A stretch of 64,000 bases of DNA, from the NCBI RefSeq assembly GCF_000591055.1, contig NC_020388.1:1178001-1242000 (forward strand), in the 5' to 3' direction. The notes beneath the pieces are model-generated. The model was not told the DNA's origin and did not search any database. It saw only the letters and a list, made by a program, of their open reading frames with translations. Below, in pieces: positions 20,722 through 35,570 of this stretch. Position 1 is the stretch's first letter, and each line of letters begins with the position of its first letter. The stretch is from Natronomonas moolapensis 8.8.11. Lineage in GTDB: Archaea > Halobacteriota > Halobacteria > Halobacteriales > Haloarculaceae. A program made the position numbers and the translations under genes.

Positions 20722-20850
20722 ACCGGGGCGTCTCGGGCGGTCATCAAAGGCTTGCCGACTCGGGCGGACCGGCATAGAGCGCTCCGGAGAGTCGGTGTGG
20801 CTCCGGCGCCGCCGGGCAAGCGCTTTGTGCCCGCCGCCCCGGATACCGGT

Positions 20851-22032
20851 ATGGATCCGGATCTCTCGAAACTCGACGCCTTCCTCGCGGAGGCGGGCGT
20901 CGATGGCTACCTGATCGAGGCCGACGGCGAGACGGCCGACCAGCGGTACCTCTCGGGGTTTACCGCTCCCGACCCGTTCGTCACCCTCTACACTGGGGAG
21001 ACGACGCTTCTGGTCTCGGCACTGGAGTACGGCCGCGCGATGCGCACCGCCAGAGCCGACCGCATCGAGCGACACTCGACGTACGACCACCGGGCGAACG
21101 TCGCGGAGTACGGCTCGCCGGGCGGGAAGTATCGGACGCTCGCCGCGTTCCTCGATTCCCACAGCGCCGACTCGGTCGCGGTGCCGAGGGACTTTCCAGT
21201 CGGGACCGCCGACGGTCTCCGGGACCACGGGATCGCGGTCGAGGCCGACCCCGACGGCGTCGTCGGCTCCATCCGCGCCCGGAAGGTCGACGAGGAGATC
21301 GACCACGTCCGGGCGACACAGCGCGCCAACGAGGCGGCGATGGCGCGCGCCGAGGACCTGCTCGTCTCGGCGACGGTCGACGGCGGAACCTTGCGTCTCG
21401 ACGGCGACCCGCTGACGGCCGAACGGGTCAAACGCGCGATCGAAATAGAGCTACTGGCGCACGACTGCGCGCTCGACGAGACGATCGTCGCCTGCGGCGC
21501 CGACGCCGCCGATCCGCACGACCGCGGATCCGGGCCGCTCGCCGCCGACGAGGCGATCATCGTCGACATCTTCCCGCGCTCGAAGACGAGCGGCTACTAC
21601 GCCGACATGACGCGGACGTTCTGCGTCGGCGACCCGGGCGAAACGATCGAGCGCTGGTACGATCTCACGTACGAGGCCCAGCGGGCCGCCCTCGACACCA
21701 TCGAGGCCGGCGTCTCCGGCAGCGACGTCCACGACGCGGTCTGTGACGTCTACGAGGACGCGGGGCTCCCGACGCTCCGGGCCGACGAGACGACCGAGAC
21801 GGGATTTATTCACACCACGGGTCACGGCGTCGGCCTCGACATCCACGAGCACCCGCGGCTCTCCGAGGAGGAGACGGAACTCGAGGCCGGCAACGTCGTG
21901 ACGGTCGAACCAGGGCTGTACGACCCCGAGGTCGGCGGCGTCCGGATCGAGGACCTCGTCGTCGTCACCGAGGACGGCCACGAGAACCTCACCGAGTATC
22001 CGACGGAGTTGGCCGTCGGTTCGGGCGGGTGA
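20851..22032 (+). CDS. M24 family metallopeptidase (Xaa-Pro dipeptidase-like)
   Basis: 393 residues: a creatinase-type N-terminal domain (about 1-135) and a pita-bread catalytic domain (about 150-393). The metal ligands are visible as Asp in IIVDIFPRS and [10 protein letters not shown], His in [13 protein letters not shown], and Glu in [20 protein letters not shown]. It removes N-terminal residues before proline or acts on X-Pro dipeptides in the cytoplasm. Divergent from aroA with 129 bases between starts. Confidence 0.9.
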
Positions 22033-22093
22033 TCGGCCTCCGGCCGCGCGACGATGCGGTAAGCTACAAACCCCACCGCCCCATAGCCCCAAT

Positions 22094-22160
22094 GGCGGCT
22101 GTGATGACGCGTCTACCCCCGCTCCGAGCCCCGTGTGACGACGCACACCTCTGAGCCGCC
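22094..22160 (+). ncRNA. candidate C/D box guide sRNA
   Basis: A terminal stem GGCGGC (22094-22099) / GCCGCC (22155-22160) brackets a perfect C box GTGATGA (22101-22107) and D box CTGA (22151-22154). Between them are a one-mismatch D' (CCGA, 22124-22127) and C' (GTGACGA, 22135-22141). Size (67 nt) and order C-D'-C'-D fit archaeal 2'-O-methylation guides. The D guide would be about 22142-22150 and the D' guide 22108-22123. The gene set for the protein partners (flpA, nop5) is in this window at 34-35.6 kb. The two guide targets were not identified. Confidence 0.5.
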
Positions 22161-22218
22161 GTTTCCGGACGCGCGCCGAGACGAACCCCTTTTGAACGAC
22201 CGCGAGTAACCCGAATCC

Positions 22219-22947
22219 ATGCAACTGCTCGTCGTCGGCGCGGGTGAGATGGGTCGGTGGTTCGCCCGCCAAAGCGGCGCCGACGCGGTCGCGTTCGCTG
22301 ACCGCGACCCGGCGACAGCGCGTGCGGCGGCCGATATCGGGGACGCACGCGCCGTCGACCTCGACACCGACGAGACGTTCGACGCCGTCTGTCTCGCGGT
22401 GCCGATGTCCGCCACCCCGACCGCGATCGGGACTCACGCCGGCCGGGCGAGCGAGGCCGTCGTCGACGTGGCGGGGGAGATGCGCGACGCCGTGGCGGCG
22501 CTTCGGACCCACGCCGAGGGGCTCGAACGAGCCAGCTTTCACCCGCTGTTCTCGGCCGCGAACGCCCCGGGAAACGTTCCTGTCGTCGTCGATAACGCCG
22601 GGCCGACGGTCGATCGGTTCCGTGCGGCGCTCGAGGCGGCGGGCAACGAGGTCTTCGAGACGACGCCGGCGGCCCACGACCGCGCGATGGAGACCGTCCA
22701 GGCGAAGGCGCACACGGCCATCCTGGCGTACGCGCTCGCCGCCGAGGACGTCGACCCGCGGTTTCACACCTCCCTCTCGGGACCGCTGTCGACCCTCGTC
22801 GAGGGGACCCTCGACAACACACCAGAGGTGTACGCCGAGATCCAAGAGCGATTCGAGGGCGCGTCGTCGGTCGCCGAAGCCGCGGCCGAGATTGCCGACG
22901 CCGACCACAGGACGTTCGTCGACCTCTACGGGGAGGCGGGCGAGTGA
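22219..22947 (+). CDS. tyrA: prephenate dehydrogenase
   Basis: 242 residues. MQLLVVGAGEMGRWFARQSG is the Rossmann NAD(P)-binding motif (GAGEMG); the C-terminal helical domain contains RASFHPLFSAANAPGN, which carries the catalytic His and substrate contacts (SFHPLFS is typical of the haloarchaeal enzyme). It oxidatively decarboxylates prephenate in tyrosine synthesis, downstream of the aroA and aroC products. It is about 240 residues, shorter than fused bacterial TyrA, without chorismate mutase or ACT domains. Confidence 0.88.
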   Translation: MQLLVVGAGEMGRWFARQSGADAVAFADRDPATARAAADIGDARAVDLDTDETFDAVCLAVPMSATPTAIGTHAGRASEAVVDVAGEMRDAVAALRTHAEGLERASFHPLFSAANAPGNVPVVVDNAGPTVDRFRAALEAAGNEVFETTPAAHDRAMETVQAKAHTAILAYALAAEDVDPRFHTSLSGPLSTLVEGTLDNTPEVYAEIQERFEGASSVAEAAAEIADADHRTFVDLYGEAGE

Positions 22948-34101: not shown

Positions 34102-34737
34102 TCAGCGCGGCGTCGCGACAACGCCGAAGTGATCCTCGTGAAACGGCTCCAGCGACCGCGTTTCGAGGACCTCGTACCCCTCCGAGAGCGTTTCCAGTAC
34201 CGACTCGAGGACGGCATCCGGATCGGCGACGACGTCCTCGCTTCGCGTTTTGACCGCCAACAGCAGCCGGCCGCCCTCGCGGAGGAAGCGCCGGTTCGTC
34301 ACCGCGACGTCGGCCTGTCCGCGCGTCGCGACGTCCTGGACGATCGCGTCGACCGGTTCGACGACGTGGGCGTACGTCTCCGGGGCTCTCGCGTCTTTCA
34401 ACAGCGAAAAGAGGTTCGGCCGGGGCTCGGCGGCGTCGAGCAGGTCGCGGGTCGGCCGGGCCGCGAACTCGACGGCGTAGGTCGGCCCGGCGAAGTCGGC
34501 GACGTGGCTGACGGTCGTCCCCGCCGCGGCGCCGAGGTACAGCACGGTCTCGCCGCCCTCGAGGCCGTGTTCGACCCCGCGCTCGAACATCGCCCCGAGC
34601 TTCGATCGACGGGCGTCCCAGCGACGCCACTCGCCGTCGGTCGGCTCGCCGTACACCGGGTCGCCGCGGGTCGCGAGCCACTCGTCGTCGCCGCCGAAGG
34701 TGCGCCGCTCGACGCCGTCGGGGAGGGCGGGCGTCAT
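34102..34737 (-). CDS. flpA: fibrillarin-like rRNA/tRNA 2'-O-methyltransferase
   Basis: 211 residues. The N-terminus ALPDGVERRTFGGDDEWLAT is the family start; ETVLYLGAAAGTTVSHVADF is SAM motif I; TYAVEFAARPTRDLLDAAEP and VDAIVQDVATRGQADVAVTN are the following strands with the Asp and Lys/Asn contacts; LLAVKTRSEDV holds the catalytic Lys. It is the catalytic subunit of the C/D box sRNP. Its start overlaps the nop5 stop by four bases. Confidence 0.95.
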   Translation of the reverse strand: MTPALPDGVERRTFGGDDEWLATRGDPVYGEPTDGEWRRWDARRSKLGAMFERGVEHGLEGGETVLYLGAAAGTTVSHVADFAGPTYAVEFAARPTRDLLDAAEPRPNLFSLLKDARAPETYAHVVEPVDAIVQDVATRGQADVAVTNRRFLREGGRLLLAVKTRSEDVVADPDAVLESVLETLSEGYEVLETRSLEPFHEDHFGVVATPR

Positions 34738-35570
34738 TCGACATCACGCGCCTGGATGCGCTCGATGCGGTCGTGGAGTTCGGTCTCCAGTTCGGGACGC
34801 CGGTCGCCGGCGTAGTGGTCGATCCGCGCCGCGATGGAGAGCTTCCCGGCGAGCGCCCGCGCCGCCGACCCCCGGTGTTCGGGGTGGGTACCGCTCACGG
34901 CTTCGTGGGTGAAGATGATTCCGTGTTTCGGCGACGGCGCCCGCCCGCGGAGGTGGGCGAACAGCGCCTCCTCCGCTCCGAGGACCTGCACGGTCCCGGC
35001 CGGCTTCCGGGCGAGTTGTTTCAGCCCGCCCGCGAGTGCGATGAGCCGGGCGGCGAGTACGGCACCCGCCAGCGCAGTGAGGTTCGGCGCGACCTCCGGG
35101 GCGGTCCGCTCGATGTGGCTCCGCAGCGCCGCGGCCTCGTCGTCGAGCCCCGCGGCCCGCTCGGCGAGCGAGGCGAGCCGGCGGTCTTCGGGCTCCTCCT
35201 CGCCGGCCAGCGTCCGCGCGTAGGCGACGCCGGAGCCCGCCTCCTCGCGCTTTCGGCCCGCCCACTCGGCGACCCGCTCGGCGAGTTCGTTCGCGACGCG
35301 CTCGCAGTCGTCCATCGCCCGGACGCTGCTCACGAGGTCCCGGTCCGCCGCCGTCTCCGCCTCCCGGACGGCCGCCCGCGTCGCCGACGTCGTCGCGTCG
35401 TGAAGCAGGTCGTAGTAGTCGTCCTCGTCGGCGGCGAAGCCCGCCTCGACCGCCCGCGCGGGCCACTCGGCCGGCTCCTCGGCGGTCCCGCGTTCGATCG
35501 CCTCGCGGGCCTCCTCGAGGTCGGCCGGGTCGACGTCCTCGAACCACCCCCTCCCAGTATTTTCGGTCAT
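34734..35570 (-). CDS. nop5: Nop5/Nop56-like C/D sRNP core protein
   Basis: 278 residues. An N-terminal fibrillarin-interacting region is reduced (GWFEDVDPADLEEAREAIER), then a coiled coil (about 75-180) and the Nop domain: TERTAPEVAPNLTALAGAVL-type stretch, LIALAGGLKQLARKPAGTVQ and VLGAEEALFAHLRGRAPSPK followed by GIIFTHEAV. The Nop domain binds the K-turn formed by C/D boxes together with L7Ae. A TATA box at about 35606-35617 precedes the ATG. Coding for both Nop5 and fibrillarin from one transcript is usual in archaea. Confidence 0.92.
   Translation of the reverse strand: MTENTGRGWFEDVDPADLEEAREAIERGTAEEPAEWPARAVEAGFAADEDDYYDLLHDATTSATRAAVREAETAADRDLVSSVRAMDDCERVANELAERVAEWAGRKREEAGSGVAYARTLAGEEEPEDRRLASLAERAAGLDDEAAALRSHIERTAPEVAPNLTALAGAVLAARLIALAGGLKQLARKPAGTVQVLGAEEALFAHLRGRAPSPKHGIIFTHEAVSGTHPEHRGSAARALAGKLSIAARIDHYAGDRRPELETELHDRIERIQARDVE

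Follow-up and report, generated by a model that had tools for sequence, protein, structure and literature searches.

The stretch of DNA analysed here (64 kb from Natronomonas moolapensis, hereafter the window) carries in the gap between an M24 peptidase gene and tyrA an element of 67 bases that is almost certainly a genuine C/D box sRNA gene. It probably is a free-standing gene that originated as a duplicate of the haloarchaeal Gm1950 guide and that would guide the methyltransferase FlpA to G1943 of 23S rRNA (E. coli 1907). Its box architecture, the covariation of its stem, its conservation, its paralogy to a known guide and its complementarity to rRNA are all visible at the level of sequence, in agreement with the preliminary description, which had proposed a candidate C/D box sRNA at this location. 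The features of the element and of its neighbourhood are listed in Table 1.

Table 1. The class B sRNA gene, its parts and the relevant neighbouring genes (positions in the window)
Feature	Positions	Strand	Basis and remarks
M24 peptidase gene, upstream	20848..22032	+	Pfam PF00557, E 3.5e-48; start codon is a choice made within the ORF, stop at 22032
Promoter-like element GGTAAGCTACAAACC	22058..22072	+	Ends 21 bases upstream of the sRNA stem; putative promoter
C/D box sRNA gene (almost certain), class B (probable register-shifted paralogue of the haloarchaeal Gm1950 guide)	22094..22160	+	Architecture, conservation, covariation
Terminal stem, 5' arm GGCGGC	22094..22099	+	Covariation
C box GTGATGA	22101..22107	+	Sequence; a 1-nt spacer separates the stem from the C box
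D' antisense element TACCCCCGCT	22114..22123	+	Pairs with 23S rRNA 1939-1948; predicted methylation of G1943
D' box CCGA	22124..22127	+	Sequence and family comparison
D'-C' spacer GCCCCGTG, 8 bases	22128..22135	+	Kept in most relatives
C' box TGACGA	22136..22141	+	Sequence and family comparison
D guide CGCACACCT, 9 bases	22142..22150	+	No target above chance in 16S, 23S and 39 tRNA-gene loci
D box CTGA	22151..22154	+	Sequence and family comparison
Terminal stem, 3' arm GCCGCC	22155..22160	+	Covariation
Promoter-like element of tyrA CCTTTTGAAC	22188..22197	+	Also before tyrA in relatives without the sRNA; putative promoter
TyrA-like gene, downstream	22219..22947	+	Prephenate dehydrogenase domain PF02153, 20.9 bits, below the Pfam cut-off of 26.5
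FlpA (archaeal fibrillarin), expected methyltransferase partner	34102..34737	-	E 1.5e-51
Nop5, expected protein partner	34734..35570	-	Nop domain, E 2.9e-39

The C, D', C' and D boxes follow one another in the order and with the spacing of an archaeal C/D box sRNA. The GC terminal stem, the C and D boxes and the internal D'/C' pair that had been noted earlier could all be read within the 67 bases, with CCGA rather than CTGA as the D' box; this D' box and the C' box TGACGA are frequent variants within the family. The interval between the C and D' boxes is long (16 nt versus 12-13 nt in the class A relatives defined below). A composite motif of six stem pairs and all four boxes, sought on both strands with archaeal-like spacings whose limits were fixed after the sequence was known, was found at a single place in the window and in none of 200 first-order Markov sequences. 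Rfam gave no match in the window at the gathering score; at a relaxed threshold all seven matches between 22040 and 22220 belonged to C/D snoRNA families and lay inside 22093-22161, each below the gathering score.

The terminal stem shows compensatory changes. Among 51 aligned sequences, 303 of 306 cells (99.0%) of the six-pair stem were paired, and changes on both sides occurred at five of the six pairs, in 27 cells, against a mean of 4.6 in shuffled controls (none of 500 as high); these covariation counts are inflated by relatedness, and slid controls stay below the observed values. The single-strand fold predicted for the window RNA is a rod (z = -2.4), which differs from the sRNP form.

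A DNA search of 195 genomes detected the sRNA (E values from 1e-36 to 1e-13) in 16 of the 20 Natronomonas genomes covered, its own among them. Weaker matches were spread over the order; at E values around 0.01 or higher, most of them are noise. The family pattern was matched in 318 of 392 genomes and 83 of 95 genera in an order-wide search, and a covariance model (R1) applied to 79 genomes (74 missed by the pattern and five of the genus) recovered the family in 74, with a match in all 63 genomes of 90% or higher completeness and no more than 5% contamination. In the loci read from the covariance model genomes, GTTACCCCC adjoins D' in 33 of 34, the exception being a weak second model match (L249), which has no recognisable guide and is excluded from the count. 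Since the model was trained on such sequences, it measures presence, and conservation only in part. Judged from these searches, the family is present in nearly all haloarchaea searched. The window genome has exactly two model matches, one at C1:2707752-2707814 on the minus strand (80.9 bits) and the window copy (66.4 bits, E 1.2e-14), the latter a homologue of the former by a score that is partly circular, since the window's own copy (L002) is among the 51 building sequences, whereas the BLAST matches are free of circularity.

Parsing reduced 127 places to 105 distinct sRNAs; 11 further places, in which a strict C box, a D box or a four-pair stem was missing, were left out; among them are 6 to 8 apparently genuine members whose C boxes take forms like ATGAAGA. 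On the basis of the distance from ACCCC to D', the 105 sRNAs were divided into class A (75), class B (24, including the window copy) and class C (6). In class A, GTTACCCCC is followed by one free base and D'. In class B, TACCCCC is followed by GC, a T (or A) and D', so that two extra bases separate the antisense element from the box, and the window copy has TACCCCCGCT directly before CCGA. In class C, GTTACCCC is followed by one base and D'. The other copy in the window genome belongs to class A, which is taken to be the known Gm1950 guide, because its register gives exactly the Gm1950 site.

The position of the conserved block relative to D' differs between the two larger classes. It spans -2 to -10 in class A (C75 five times, A75, T75, T75, G74; 75 sequences) and about -1 to -10 in class B (T21, C22, G24, C24 five times, A24, T22; 24 sequences), with positions -11 and -12 variable; in this comparison, ACCCC and the spacing are part of the parsing rule and the other positions are free, except in three sequences (L183, L185 and L186) fetched by a pattern containing the G. 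The kept complementarity has thus shifted with the box by two bases on the rRNA, and on these sequences the two-base register shift looks selected.

The target was sought in the organism's own 16S, 23S and tRNA loci. Its 23S numbering equals that of E. coli plus 36 (1907 = G1943, 1909 = G1945, 1915 = U1951, 1917 = U1953), which agrees with the report of Gm1950 in H. marismortui (E. coli 1909) and puts a U at each of the two reported pseudouridine sites, E. coli 1915 and 1917 (PMC2584109). The best match of the window D' guide is 23S 1939-1948, conserved in relatives, with nine Watson-Crick pairs and one G-U pair and with its fifth base opposite G1943; taken alone the match is not significant, as 44 of 300 shuffled guides equal it in 16S and 23S. 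The added GC of class B pairs with C1941 and G1940. The organism's own class A guide forms ten pairs with 23S 1942-1951 and places position 5 on G1945, the equivalent of G1950. Because the fifth base of class B faces G1943 and not G1945, class B is a paralogue and not a strict member of the Gm1950 guides. The helix 69 target was located in 23 of 33 genomes searched and was identical in 22 of them, the remaining one (G197) having one change. The D guide yielded no target above chance in 16S and 23S (222 of 300 shuffles were as good), and its best match in the 39 tRNA-gene loci had seven pairs, at most equal to that in 16S; candidate D guide targets in all three sets were rejected, and the D guide is probably idle. 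The earlier expectation that the guides would match rRNA or tRNA was borne out for the D' guide, and a role for both guides, which had been implied, found no backing on the D side.

Taken together, these data allow a mechanism to be proposed. The RNA would fold through its GC terminal stem and the C/D and C'/D' kink-turns and bind L7Ae, Nop5 and FlpA, and the D' guide would pair with the 5' strand of helix 69, after which FlpA would be expected to methylate the 2'-O of G1943 by the D'+5 rule. Class B probably arose as a duplicate of the guide for Gm1950 (G1945 here), the two extra bases before D' shifting the predicted site two bases 5'. That the class B sRNA is transcribed, assembles into an sRNP and directs methylation, and where exactly it does so, is inferred. 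The motif statistics, the stem covariation, the paralogy, the neighbouring registers, the moved block, the constant target and the presence of genes for FlpA and Nop5 (the partner proteins already named in the preliminary description, and indeed encoded in the window) speak for a G1943 guide. Against it may be counted the weak D' match taken alone, the long C-D' interval, the CCGA form of D' (common in the family), the D guide without a target and the lack of class B in four of the 20 Natronomonas genomes. The H. marismortui map, as given in PMC2584109, has Gm1950 and no Gm at 1948, which weighs against a G1943 guide only if class B is present in that organism.

Several other functions may be considered. 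An unlikely one is that class B is a redundant guide, with G1945 still methylated despite the shift through a non-canonical reading of D': the class B guide also spans G1945, and in yeast two adjacent sites can be modified by snoRNAs whose C'/D' motifs are unusual (PMC5389607). However, the added bases pair with the rRNA and are kept, box and conserved block have shifted together, the genome already contains a canonical class A copy, and a base inserted between guide and D' in yeast displaced the site by one (PMC5389607). Slightly less likely still is an sRNP that would base-pair with helix 69 yet methylate it inefficiently or not at all, and would either assist rRNA folding or compete with the class A guide. 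The length of the C-D' interval and the overlap of the two antisense elements in one genome, both covering 23S 1942-1948, would favour this; on the other hand, all boxes are retained in the 24 class B sequences counted, though most of them were demanded by the search. It is improbable that the D guide, or the 5' portion of the D' interval, directs the sRNA to another RNA (tRNA or mRNA), given that the 16S, 23S and tRNA matches of the D guide described above do not rise above chance, despite a D guide composition that is non-random within the genus (C13 G13 C11 C11 C9 A10 C12 T7 C8 of 13).

A simple hairpin, a terminator or a regulator in the tyrA leader, already disfavoured, is very improbable. 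The preliminary description had placed the element in the leader of tyrA and had offered an inner hairpin, GTGTG...CACAC, as an alternative structure. This hairpin is present in the window copy, whose single-strand fold has the z score given above, and of the 16 Natronomonas genomes with class B, 14 carry it at most about 400 bases upstream of tyrA. Yet only the window's own sequence, out of 24 in class B, keeps all five pairs, and the hairpin was rejected; moreover, class B lies elsewhere in the other two genomes (G017 and G018) and precedes other genes outside the genus. In addition, the sRNA lies upstream of the promoter-like element of tyrA and has such an element of its own, which recurs in variants at 13 of 16 Natronomonas class B loci (two are without it and one was not correctly read), and in two genomes (G003 and G005) from a clade devoid of class B a short M24-tyrA gap lacks the sRNA and retains a TTTTGA-like element ahead of tyrA. 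For these reasons the leader reading was rejected, and the element is probably outside the tyrA leader. The sRNA-free gaps and the differing neighbours therefore point to gain or loss of a self-contained unit and to an sRNA that is dispensable for tyrA; the two gaps (L193 and L209) are possible empty sites. A short ORF of 20 codons (ATG at 22092, stop inside the D box) is open in the window but hardly credible and was rejected, the ATG being present in four of 24 class B sequences, the frame broken or its stop displaced in 11 of 24, and the stem changes compensatory.

The G1943 guide proposed here has close counterparts among known RNAs. A C/D sRNA of Haloferax volcanii has been predicted for 23S Gm1934 (Gm1950 in H. 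marismortui), with Pyrococcus sR41 as a suggested relative, and the predicted guide for this site has relatives in 25 archaeal genomes (PMC2584109). The Haloferax RNA shares with the window copy the 23S helix and an almost equal antisense sequence. In the window copy, D' is preceded by two additional bases, the predicted site lies two bases 5' and the C-D' interval is 16 instead of 12-13. The duplicated sRNA genes sR24/sR25 of Methanopyrus kandleri likewise have a predicted site shifted by guide indels, which were proposed as a general source of neighbouring sites, but differ in their 16S target, hyperthermophilic host, use of the D guide and retention of a common target by the other guide; helix 69 is named there as a hotspot in hyperthermophiles (PMC4644070). 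In yeast, snR13, snR48 and U18 also methylate neighbouring nucleotides in one target region, and a base inserted before D' shifts the site, in this case through a single RNA with an unusual C'/D' motif as opposed to two paralogous RNAs (PMC5389607). The principle of target shift by guide indels is therefore already known. Searches of an open-access library, limited to main texts, turned up nothing on a haloarchaeal helix 69 guide with a shifted register.

A wider reading, whose chances we hold to be evenly poised, is that haloarchaea have repeatedly duplicated the helix 69 guide and slipped its register, by +2 in Natronomonas, Halorarius, Halosegnis and a few others and by -1 in several other genera, so that the ribosomes of these lineages would bear additional ribose methylations of their own (E. 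coli 1907 or 1910) next to the universal one at 1909, at subunit bridge B2a and the tRNA contact. A slipped duplicate guide would predict that a functional centre of the ribosome carries a new, precisely placed methylation particular to the lineage, in a group for which very few rRNA ribose methylations have been reported (PMC2584109). The class A/B pair may also offer a natural experiment on the five-nucleotide rule and on the way guides acquire targets, in a group with cultivable species, and the covarying stem and the two classes yield a model with which an RNA family absent from Rfam at the gathering score can be annotated.

With regard to distribution, the class B pattern occurs on named contigs of Natronomonas, Halorarius, Halosegnis and others. 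Within Natronomonas, four genomes (G003, G005, G007 and G011) have class A only, class B being absent by covariance model or BLAST, and three of these group together in the TyrA tree, for which only midpoint rooting is available. A near-identical copy of the window sRNA (L183) lies on a contig labelled uncultured Bacteroidetes, which is probably a mis-binned Natronomonas contig, and a class B-like sRNA with GCA ahead of D' (L186) lies on a 293-kb plasmid record of Halospeciosus flavus. Class C copies (GTTACCCC N followed by CYGA, with one base fewer before D'; L041, L052, L063, L075, L077 and L089, and also in G203, G241, G273, G197 and G090) are usually accompanied by a class A copy and have E. 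coli 1910 as their predicted site. One of them (L261, G241:C5) lies on a 150-kb contig about 1.6 kb from the 23S helix 69 sequence, on the opposite strand. It seems that the helix 69 guide has shifted on more than one occasion.

The D'-C' spacer, GCCCC(G/T)TG, is retained across most haloarchaea, which goes beyond what a loop should require. Pattern searches with a fixed GAGCCCC (one regular expression additionally demanded CCCC in the guide) are silent on its conservation, and the covariance model revealed divergent spacers (GCTCAGTG, GCCCAAGTG and GCCTGAGAG) in distant genomes only. An extension of the D' pairing through the spacer into 23S was rejected, as no such pairing exists, and rRNA pairing thus fails to explain the spacer.

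Position 5 of the C box and position 2 of the D box face each other in the kink-turn. Among the 105 sRNAs the two bases are, with few exceptions, either both U or both C. Class A has CC in 66, UU in 5 and mixed pairs in 4 of 75 sequences, class B has UU in 14 and CC in 10 of 24, and all six class C sequences have CC.
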